A DNA stretch of 64,000 bases from Allobaculum mucilyticum (GTDB lineage Bacteria; Bacillota_I; Bacilli_A; Erysipelotrichales; Erysipelotrichaceae), in contig NZ_CP078089.1 in NCBI RefSeq assembly GCF_022701195.1, positions 1,984,001-2,048,000 of the forward strand. Reading direction: 5' to 3'. A program made the position numbers and the translations under genes. Positions 36,624 to 39,365 of the stretch are shown here, piece by piece. Under the pieces are notes generated by a model. The model ran no database searches. It saw only the letters and a list, made by a program, of their open reading frames with translations, and was not told where the DNA came from. Every line of letters starts with the position of its first letter. Positions within the stretch are counted from its first letter, which is position 1.

Positions 36624-37009
36624 TTTCTGAAACGAAATGATGCAGCTGCTGGTATTGCAAGGTACCAGAGGAAAGTCCATGCTCGCACAGTCTGTGATGA
36701 CTGTAGTGTTTGTGCCAGCCGAATCAATAAGACTGGGGTGTCCGCAAGGATACACGGCTGTACTGAAGTCTAAGGTATGTCTGTTTTGACCAGAAAACTA
36801 TGACGGAAGTCTTTAAAAGTGCCACAGAGACGCAGCCTTTCTGGAAACGGAAAGGGTGGAACGGGTAAACCCCTCAAGCGAGAAACCCAAATTTGGTAGG
36901 GGAACCGCCAATGGCGAACCGAAGCCGGCGGCGGATGCGAAAGCATAGATAAATTGCTGCAGCTTCCGCAAGGAAGAACAGAACATGGCTTATGATTTTT
37001 GTTCAGAAA
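36624..37009 (+). ncRNA. rnpB: RNase P RNA, type B
   Basis: The catalytic RNA that matures tRNA 5' ends. Diagnostic conserved pieces are GAGGAAAGTCCATGCTCGCA near 36670, AGTGCCACAGAGACG near 36818, GGTAAACCCCTCAAGCGAGA near 36866, CCCAAATTTGGTAGGGGAAC near 36886, and the closing ACAGAACATGGCTTA near 36978. The ends are set by P1 pairing TTTCTGAA (36624) with TTCAGAAA (about 37002), so they are good to a few bases. The layout with the P10.1-type region marks the Bacillus (B) class. Confidence 0.95.
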
Positions 37010-37168: not shown

Positions 37169-37711
37169 TCAGCTGGCTTTTACGTTCCTGAAGAAACGAG
37201 GGCCAAGCGCACGGACCAGAAGCGGGATCATAATCAGGTCGAGAATCAGCGTTGGAACCATGTAGGATGCCTGATAAGCCAGGGATCCTGCAAGAGTTAC
37301 TTCGTAGAAGAAGACTCCCGAAAGGGTCGATGAGATGAAGCGGATGAGGTTTGTGATCAGCACGCCCGAATAGAACCATTTGTAATTGGGGAACAGGCAC
37401 GCGATTCCGTAGACGGAAAACGCGATGAAGTAGTCGAGCAGAAACTGCACGAATCCAAGCAGATACATCTGTCCGGTTACAAACTGGAGCAGTACAGAAA
37501 GCATGCTGGTCAGAAGACCGAGCTTCCAGCCAAGCTGGTAGCTTGCCATCAGCAGAGCGACCGTGCCAAGTCCAAGCGTACCGCCCTGAGGCATGCGGAA
37601 CAGGGGAAGCGCATTGGACAGCCAGTCCAGCACGAAGAACAGCGCCAGATACATGGCAACATAGGCAATATCCCGGACTGAGAATCCGGATTTTTTTGTT
37701 TGGGTATTCAT
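37169..37711 (-). CDS. thiT: ECF thiamine-binding S component ThiT
   Basis: A 180-aa membrane protein with about six helices that binds thiamine and docks on EcfA1/A2/T. Family features: GGTLGLGTVALLMASYQLGWKLGLLTSMLSV, LLQFVTGQMYLLGFVQFLLDYFIAFSVYGIACLF and ITNLIRFISSTLSGVFF, ending in ASYMVPTLILD. No ATPase gene is adjacent, so it must use the shared module (ecfA1-A2-T at 9245). AAAGGAG lies 5 nt before the start and may be regulated by the structured leader upstream. Substrate assignment is by family resemblance. Confidence 0.85.
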   Translation of the reverse strand: MNTQTKKSGFSVRDIAYVAMYLALFFVLDWLSNALPLFRMPQGGTLGLGTVALLMASYQLGWKLGLLTSMLSVLLQFVTGQMYLLGFVQFLLDYFIAFSVYGIACLFPNYKWFYSGVLITNLIRFISSTLSGVFFYEVTLAGSLAYQASYMVPTLILDLIMIPLLVRALGPRFFRNVKAS

Positions 37712-37860
37712 TTTTTCTCCTTTGGAACTCTCTCTTTTTCAATACCTGAAAAAGCCGGATTTTCTCAGGAGGAGCAGGATGGGTTTCATCAGCAGCCCTT
37801 CTGTCTTTGCGCTTGCAGAAGTTCTGCTGACTGGTTTGAACCTGTCTGCTCTCAGGTATT
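37712..37860 (-). promoter_or_regulatory. Structured 5' leader of thiT, riboswitch-like
   Basis: The minus-strand RNA folds into nested helices: P1 AAUACCUGA (37860-37852) with UCAGGUAUU (37749-37741), P2 GAGCAG/CUGCUC, P3 GGUUCA/UGAAACC (bulged), and P4 CAGCAG/CUGCUG extended by UUCUG/CAGAA. The 3' side holds CUCCUCCU (37775-37768), complementary to the thiT ribosome site AAAGGAG (37723-37717). An alternative stem, CUGAGAAA with UUUUUCAG, would compete with P1. The TPP riboswitch consensus is not present. Function is inferred from folding and position. Confidence 0.5.
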
Positions 37861-37882
37861 GTATAGCGTCATGATAAAAAAT

Positions 37883-37919
37883 GAAGAACCATCCGGCTCT
37901 GGAGAAGATCGGATGGTTC
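37883..37919 (-). terminator. Terminator of metallophosphoesterase gene
   Basis: GAACCATCCG and CGGATGGTTC pair perfectly; on the minus strand TTCATTTTTTATC follows. Confidence 0.8.
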
Positions 37920-37966
37920 GAAAGCGTTTTAATTCATGTCTGTTTTTCTGCACACAGGCAGGGGAA

Positions 37967-39028
37967 TTACTGTTCTGGTTCGACAGGCAGATCTTCTTCG
38001 CCGGGAACCGGTTCGACTGCAGAAGGCACATCGGATGGAACTTCTGTCTGTGCAGATTCCGCTGGAGCGGCTTCAGGCTGTGCTGCGGAATCCTGGACCG
38101 GAGTATTTGTGGAGTCTTTTGCGTCGCTGAGAAGAGTGATGTGAACAAATTCGACAGGCGAGTTGATGCGGGCCTGGATGTCGATGCATCCGACACCGGA
38201 AGTAATCAGATATGGAAAGCCGGTCTTTCTGCGTTTGGAGCGGTTAATCTGTTTGCTTCCAGGGAAAGTGGCGTAGTCGCCGATCAGCGGCCAGCGAACC
38301 TGCGAGCCATGTGAGTTTCCGCAAAGTGCATAGTCTGCCGAAAGAGAACTGCCTTCCAGGGTAAGCATGTTATCCGGATAGTGGGAAAGAAGCAGCGTGT
38401 ACTGTCCTTCACCGACAGAAGCAGCTGCTGCACTGGGATCTGCGTCCGGTGCAAGACCGACAAGACGGATACCGTCTGCAGAATGGTTGGAGAGCAGAAC
38501 GCTGGAGTTGTTGAGAATCTCAACCTGCGCATGGGCGTAAATGTCGTTGACGGAAATCTGATGGTCGCTGTCGACGAGATCCTGTTCGCCATAAACCGCA
38601 AATTTTCCCAGCGGTGCTTTGATCGAGCTGATCCACTGCGTCATCTGATTGCGCAGGGATTCATCAATGGGCTGATCCCAGGCGAACAGGTCGCCGCCAA
38701 TCAGCAGAATGTCCGGATCAATTGCGGCAATCTGACCGAACAGCTCATCGCCTTTTTCTTTTGTGAAGCCTTCGCCGTATTCGATGTCGCTCAGGAACAC
38801 GACTGAAACCTGATCGAGAGCGGAAGGAATCTTTTCGTCTTCGATCTGAATGTAGCGGGATGTAATCCGGTTTGGTGCGATATAGATGCCCTGGAACAGA
38901 TACGCATCAAAGATGAGCATCAGGGCAGTGGCTGCTGCAAGCATGAGCATGACCCATTTCTGCCAGGTCATTCGTTTTCTGTGTGGATGCGGCCGTTTTG
39001 AAGCCGCCGAGGTGGATGCCTTTGCCAT
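37967..39028 (-). CDS. Membrane-anchored metallophosphoesterase-like protein
   Basis: A 353-aa protein with a basic N-terminus, one membrane helix (about residues 24-46) and an outward calcineurin-like phosphoesterase domain of the YaeI type. Several metal ligands are altered: DxH is Asp81-Ile-Glu83, GNHD is Gly147-Glu-Gln-Asp150, and GHxH is Gly237-Asn-Ser-His240. GGD (Asp113) and SHYPD (His216) remain. The tail after about residue 310 is Pro/Glu/Ala-rich. Start at 39028 follows AAGGAGG at unusually short spacing (3 nt); the in-frame ATG at 39052 has no ribosome site. It may be a pseudoenzyme or use changed metal chemistry. Confidence 0.82.
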   Translation of the reverse strand: MAKASTSAASKRPHPHRKRMTWQKWVMLMLAAATALMLIFDAYLFQGIYIAPNRITSRYIQIEDEKIPSALDQVSVVFLSDIEYGEGFTKEKGDELFGQIAAIDPDILLIGGDLFAWDQPIDESLRNQMTQWISSIKAPLGKFAVYGEQDLVDSDHQISVNDIYAHAQVEILNNSSVLLSNHSADGIRLVGLAPDADPSAAAASVGEGQYTLLLSHYPDNMLTLEGSSLSADYALCGNSHGSQVRWPLIGDYATFPGSKQINRSKRRKTGFPYLITSGVGCIDIQARINSPVEFVHITLLSDAKDSTNTPVQDSAAQPEAAPAESAQTEVPSDVPSAVEPVPGEEDLPVEPEQ

Positions 39029-39365
39029 GGTCCTCCTTGATCTGCCAGACATAGATATGTCTGGCTGTTTCTGTCTTTTACAGAACGCTCATTTTTTTAT
39101 TTGTCTTTTTTATCTTTATGGTTCTTCTTTATCCTTTTCACCCTGGAGATCGGTTTGCGGATCAGCCACGGTCTCTGGCAATGCCTGCCAGAGAGAAAAG
39201 ATACGGGAGTGAGCGTTTTTCCATTATAGAGCATACTCATCCGAATACAAATGAACAGACGGATCCGCCTGCAGGCAGGATCCGTCTGTTGAATGCTAAG
39301 TATCGGAAAAAATGAAAAGGGCAGCAATTCAGCGGCCTGAATCAGTCTGAAAAGAAGAATGATCC
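39029..39365 (-). promoter_or_regulatory. Promoter and long leader of phosphoesterase gene
   Basis: Minus strand TTGTAT (39250-39245), 16-nt spacer, perfect TATAAT (39228-39223). The leader to 39028 is therefore about 190 nt and includes a hairpin (CTCTGGCA with TGCCAGAG near 39174-39195). The rest of the stretch holds the RNase J terminator. No gene is seen. Confidence 0.55.
39254..39290 (-). terminator. Hairpin terminator after RNase J
   Basis: AACAGACGGATCC pairs perfectly with GGATCCGTCTGTT around a GC-rich loop. The following minus-strand sequence, CATTTGTATT, is only moderately T-rich. Confidence 0.65.

Follow-up and report, generated by a model that had tools for sequence, protein, structure and literature searches.

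A conserved leader, perhaps a riboswitch, stands in place of the TPP riboswitch upstream of thiT in part of Allobaculum

Introduction

What kind of element controls a thiT-like gene when the TPP riboswitch carried by its relatives is missing from its leader? The question arises in a 64,000-nucleotide stretch of DNA (hereafter the window), which is part of the 3.14-Mb genome of Allobaculum mucilyticum (G000) and carries a thiT-like gene for an ECF S component. A preliminary description of the segment in front of this gene had recognized a riboswitch-like leader that lacks the TPP aptamer and had read it as either a translational switch or a degenerate protein-binding leader. As far as we know, just one class of riboswitch senses TPP. 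In the reading that we favor, to which we assign a probability of roughly 0.46, a lineage-specific cis-regulatory RNA, perhaps a riboswitch, replaced the TPP riboswitch at thiT in part of Allobaculum.

Results

A match to thiT was found in 53 of 59 genomes searched, and the best 30 of these 53 places, from 30 genomes, were examined. A TPP riboswitch (RF00059) scoring above the Rfam gathering threshold lies upstream of thiT at 27 of them (L004-L030), in agreement with the earlier statement that thiT is often under such control. The three loci without one are exactly the window (L001), L002 and L003, and these are exactly the three that carry the new leader: leader A in the window, leader B in an uncultured Allobaculum metagenome-assembled genome (G004, loci L002/L031) and leader C in Allobaculum sp. 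Allo2 (G001, loci L003/L032). Among 14 further named loci, L031 and L032 are G004 and G001 again, the five given to Rfam (L033-L037) all have a TPP riboswitch, and L038-L044 were left out of that scan. At the RF00059 cut-off of 54.3 bits there is no match in the window, L002 or L003, and relaxing the threshold to E 10 brings up none in the leaders themselves, nor does any family in the Rfam library searched attain its cut-off there. Up to E 10, the interval 37600-38100 gives four sub-threshold matches, the sole one on the leader strand being to preQ1-II at 15.8 bits. The Rfam comparison called for by the preliminary description thus returned no known riboswitch model at its cut-off, and its view of a structured, conserved leader that is not a TPP riboswitch holds: in three related Allobaculum-type genomes, a different conserved leader stands where relatives have the TPP riboswitch.

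The window product matches Pfam PF09515 (Thia_YuaJ) with 77.3 bits and NCBIfam ThiT with 58.9 bits, the latter under the model cut-off of 108.45, and aligns to the ThiT of PDB 3rlb with E 8e-4. Its surroundings recur in part in related genomes (Table 1). A metallophosphoesterase-like gene lies 5' of thiT in the window, in G002, which has the TPP version, and in G004 (the genes of the latter two being 52-53% identical to that of the window), rnpB lies 3' of thiT in the window, G001 and G002, and divIVA-, recU- and pbp-like genes (some named by eye) are also kept downstream in G001. The thiT site is therefore largely syntenic, with neighboring genes kept around both leader types. In G001, transposase-like frames (by eye; L154 4004-5583) directly precede the thiT leader, which is retained from the promoter-like box onward.

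Table 1. Positions of the leader elements and neighboring features in the window, and of the second thiT cluster of the same genome
Feature	Position	Strand	Basis or remark
RNase P class B RNA (rnpB), convergent neighbor	36634..36997	+	Rfam; marks the syntenic site
thiT-like ECF S component, 180 aa	37169..37711	-	Pfam PF09515, NCBIfam ThiT
Shine-Dalgarno AGGAG of thiT	37717..37721	-	Fold; complementary to CUCCU 37771-37767
Conserved box GAAAAUCCGGCUUUUUC	37748..37764	-	First 14 nt identical in three species
P1 3' strand CUGCUC	37772..37777	-	Folds
Extended P3 arm UCAGCAG/CUGCUGA below 2x2 internal loop	37789..37830	-	Folds
P3 apical hairpin CUUCUG-C-AAGCGCAAAG-A-CAGAAG	37798..37821	-	Folds, alignment
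Invariant tip word GCGCAAAG	37812-37805	-	Identical in three species, at hairpin tip
P1 5' strand GAGCAG	37846..37851	-	Folds; at inferred transcript start, pairs with CUGCUC
Likely -10 region TATACAAT	37858..37865	-	ACAATAC common to three new-leader loci, by eye
Metallophosphoesterase-like gene upstream of thiT	37967..39052	-	Related gene at same place in G002, G004
thiW-thiM-thiE-thiD-thiT2-tenA	L123 1045-5925 = G000:C1:3021244-3026124		Behind a TPP riboswitch

Outside ACAATAC, GCGCAAAG and GAAAATCCGGCTTT the three new leaders are nearly unalignable. GAAAATCCGGCTTT is invariant ahead of the ribosome-binding site and is followed by YTTC, or by TTC in the window. The longest word common to the three leaders has 14 nt and the next one 8 nt, while across 3000 triples of shuffled leaders the longest common word never exceeds 9 nt (9 in 2 triples, 8 or 9 in 29). 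Between pairs of the three species the fourfold sites of thiT are 38, 42 and 57% identical and third codon positions 46-54%; given this divergence and the near absence of alignable sequence in the rest of the leader, the tip and box words look strongly constrained. Across five genomes of the genus, the 14-nt word also occurs exactly at four places besides the three leaders and, with at most one mismatch, gives 51 matches versus 2 for the reversed pattern. Because it is commoner in the genus than expected, the shuffles somewhat overstate significance; its position in all three leaders nonetheless remains far from chance. The over-represented box-like words lie partly in coding sequence and in terminators, and terminator-like hairpins of the genus with CCGG arms and GAAA-rich loops resemble the box (L183, L187, L199 and an inverted pair in L173/L178), such that they may account for part of the excess. 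The box was also considered as half of a terminator, similar terminators being present in the genus, and was rejected as such: the window has no 5' arm for it and the scan found none. The preliminary description had the segment's coordinates right but overlooked this conserved core (loop 37814-37805 and box 37764-37748), and words of 14 and 8 nt that are invariant in three species fit badly with its notion of a degenerate leader.

The 171-nt segment 37700-37870 folds better than all 200 of its dinucleotide shuffles (-48.9 versus a mean of -34.5 kcal/mol, z -4.0), and a long hairpin is predicted in all three leaders when they are folded without much coding sequence. When the folded stretch is lengthened by 90 coding nucleotides, leader C no longer shows P1 or P3 in its minimum-energy fold, whereas leaders A and B keep both. 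P3 taken alone has a 10-nt loop (37814-37805), inside which the minimum-energy fold adds one pair in leaders A and B. Its stems read CUUCUG/CAGAAG, CUUCUGC/GCAGAAG and CUUUUC/GAAAAG in the three species, each with GCGCAAAG at the tip. In the alignment, 90.5% of P3 cells are paired: three of seven pairs have changed on both sides, two never vary and two have one unpaired cell. This outcome is equalled by 15 of 500 shuffles, and slid versions of the stem give none or one such pair; counted by number of pair types, on the other hand, covariation is not above the shuffles, of which 402 of 500 reach it. Covariation is seen as compensation in P3 and not in the pair-type count, and the architecture drawn in the preliminary description, with a closing helix starting from AAUACC, is not supported.

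P1 differs considerably in sequence among the three species. Near the inferred 5' end, 63, 18 and 20 of 500 shuffles have at least as many closing pairs as leaders A, B and C, respectively; a P1 run at least as long without interruption occurs in 212 (the window), 8 and 16 of them, and a fold energy at least as low in 4, 7 and 74. Where the transcript begins bears directly on this helix. We infer the -10 region from the shared ACAATAC, since a strict sigma-70 scan found no promoter here; CGCTATAC also precedes the TPP riboswitch of L005 (by eye). If TATACAAT is the -10 element, transcription begins no more than a few bases from 37851, and P1 is formed by GAGCAG and CUGCUC. The preliminary description had instead closed the leader with a perfect 9-bp helix. 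The complementarity itself is real, with AAUACCUGA (37860-37852) perfectly matching UCAGGUAUU (37749-37741) on the minus strand, and the nested helices inside it and the alternative hairpin CUUUUUCA/UGAAAAAG are likewise present; the pairing is, however, absent from the full-length minimum-energy fold and appears as a closing helix only when the fold is cut off before the Shine-Dalgarno (SD) sequence. Moreover, the 5' strand of this helix runs into the likely -10 box, so that most of that strand is probably not transcribed.

A translational switch had been proposed from complementarity to the SD. In the full-length fold of the window leader CUCCU (37771-37767) does pair with AGGAG (37721-37717), and SD pairing is likewise predicted for leader C and, in a shorter fold, for leader B, but shuffled leaders sequester the SD no less strongly. 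Opening GGAG is calculated to cost 2.05, 0.03 and 3.15 kcal/mol in leaders A, B and C versus shuffled means of 2.23, 3.07 and 2.93, the observed cost being reached by 73, 150 and 55 of 150 shuffles. The folding model thus gives no sign of selected SD sequestration in the three leaders, and the pairing loses its value as evidence for a switch. Nor do the three leaders contain a terminator-like site on their own strand; neither kind of expression platform rises above chance. What the leaders do share, in three representatives, is what a structured cis-regulatory RNA would present: a conserved loop and box, a compensated stem and a single associated gene.

How far the leader extends beyond these loci was addressed with a covariance model of the three sequences (R1), in which the scores of the members themselves follow by construction. 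Against 272 genomes of the family, the three strong matches are R1's own members, and the 25 weak ones (E 0.0096-0.099) come from 24 further genomes plus a second place within G001. In 17 of these 25 places the exact words were looked for: GCGCAAAG occurs twice in L141, AAATCCGGC once in L143, and no place has both; L143 and the second G001 site resemble coding sequence (by eye). There is no credible R1 copy in the other 269 family genomes, and no second copy of the leader on another gene, which might have hinted at a ligand, was found among them. Across 392 genomes of the phylum R1 yields two matches besides the window (E 8.8e-4 and 0.005, where about 0.3 and 2 are expected over that many genomes), both lacking the tip word in the 120 nt inspected, and nothing credible. 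The two-word pattern recurs there once more in G000 and once in G494, in both cases without the rest of the box after it; in viral contigs it matches 36 stretches, none continuing with TTTYTTC. The viral contigs hold no thiT relative, and plasmids and phages gave no match. With one credible R1 copy per genome, the box or tip as a mobile repeat was ruled out. When the window leader was left out, a model of the other two (R2) ranked it first within the 64 kb (E 0.0072), but genome-wide at E<=1 missed it, three other places scoring 18-24 bits. The pairwise alignment of the window with L031 misplaced the box and was left out. The leader is so far restricted to the genus, with three representatives.

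The thiT tree does not show a single origin of the new leader: two changes are needed, one change suffices in 2% of bootstrap trees, and G002, with its TPP riboswitch, joins the window with support 87/87. Pairwise thiT identities (76-80% among the three new-leader genomes, 68-71% to G002) lean toward one origin, and neighboring genes do not resolve the question. A second ThiT (thiT2) is present in G000 and G001, where the two are 81% identical to each other; in G000 it sits in a TPP-controlled cluster (Table 1). Its product matches the ThiT of solved structures with E 4e-15, far better than the E 8e-4 of the window gene. In G002, 98% complete and with a TPP riboswitch on thiT, no clear thiT2 copy was found, while G004, 67% complete, was left out of the comparison for that reason. 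An additional, TPP-controlled ThiT, once acquired, may have set the first thiT free, the number of genomes behind this suggestion being tiny. Another TPP riboswitch follows an aconitase-like gene (by eye) in both genomes (L124 3262-3368, minus strand, 53.9 bits, just under gathering, in G000; L126 3562-3666, minus strand, 57.7 bits, in G001), and behind it come a hairpin that resembles a terminator and AGGAGG (by eye). On the same strand 3' of it there is no 110-aa frame in G000 and no 150-aa frame within 800 nt in G001, and it is perhaps an orphan riboswitch whose gene was lost.

Discussion

We propose that at thiT of these Allobaculum genomes transcription would start near 37851 and that the first ~85-115 nt would form an extended, irregular hairpin with the invariant tip ANGCGCAAAG at the end of a variable stem. 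Together with the invariant box GAAAAUCCGGC, located 7-11 nt after the P1 3' strand, the tip would form a recognition core. In its 3' half (CUUUYUUC; CUUUUUC in the window) the box complements AAAG in the tip as well as purine runs that coincide with the SD or lie close to it, and binding would shift the box between the tip and the SD region, thereby setting thiT translation. Such alternation is compatible with all three sequences, and the AAAG/CUUU pairing is possible in each of the three leaders and never varies among them. That the RNA and not the DNA is recognized, that the ligand would be a small molecule, and that the output would be translational, of whichever sign, are likewise parts of this proposal. 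In a narrower version, which we regard as quite unlikely, the TPP riboswitch of one clade would have been displaced in place by a second, structurally unrelated class of riboswitch that senses thiamine, TPP or a precursor of thiamine, possibly following the acquisition of a TPP-controlled second ThiT.

Several other explanations have to be weighed against a metabolite-sensing RNA. A conserved tip on a variable stem followed by a conserved box would also suit recognition by a protein, and tip and box could form a bipartite site through which a protein or small RNA controls translation or stability of the thiT mRNA. The single credible leader copy per genome agrees with this, yet what the leader replaced was a metabolite sensor, and this would favor another such sensor in its stead; we consider a protein or small-RNA partner somewhat unlikely. 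Should recognition take place on DNA, the box, perhaps along with the inverted repeat around the tip, would be an operator for a transcription factor downstream of the promoter. In line with that, AAATCCGGCTTT is palindromic at 5 of 6 symmetric positions as read from the sequence, and box-like words are over-represented in the genus as described above; against it, the hairpin tip is conserved while the arms change with compensation, the reverse of what an operator would show, the distance of the tip from the -10 region varies, and box-like words elsewhere lie mostly in long stop-free frames, a weak test given that stop-free frames of 267-292 codons cover the three leaders as well. Such an operator is, in our estimate, quite unlikely.

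Another alternative is a leader peptide, in which the conserved words would be codons. In the window a frame of 16 codons, MKPILLLLRKSGFFRY, with a possible SD runs over the box (37739-37789, minus strand); it is not kept as a frame in the other two species. In leaders B and C frames run through both words, and at the tip A-Q-R is read in one frame in all three; the box, on the other hand, is read in different frames, identity includes third positions, and the window frame that reads AQR lacks an ATG, GTG or TTG start, which together make control by a peptide highly improbable. Least credible of all is a decayed or strongly diverged TPP riboswitch: although gene and site are those of the relatives' TPP riboswitch, the three leaders give no trace of it in the Rfam search and have a single-hairpin architecture, and their two invariant words point to selection.

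The regulatory RNA that we favor also differs from known systems. With the TPP riboswitch (RF00059) it shares gene and place upstream of thiT but neither the two-arm fold nor the sequence. The preQ1-II riboswitch also precedes genes of ECF S components. Like the new leader, preQ1-II (RF01054) ends at the SD, but the window match (E 8.8) stands against a gathering threshold of 47 bits and has its clearest matching run, AAAGGAGAAA, at the SD itself. The HMP-PP riboswitch, or thiS motif, resembles the new leader as a thiamine-related leader with a conserved hairpin loop beside a pairing switch; the thiS aptamer, however, lies within an intrinsic terminator that has six or more consecutive U (PMC6478431), whereas the new leaders lack a terminator-like site on their strand. 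Orphan riboswitch candidates similarly combine variable stems with conserved words and lie in front of a metabolic gene (PMC7266159), the present leader differing in having only three representatives from one genus. In the consulted portions of the literature on thiT and thiamine riboswitches, Allobaculum and Erysipelotrich RNAs, the leader is not reported, a mention in full texts or supplements being possible.

If the favored reading is true, the in-place swap of a TPP riboswitch beside relatives that keep it would provide a clean natural experiment on the turnover of regulatory RNAs, and the leader itself would be a small and testable candidate for a new ligand-binding RNA.
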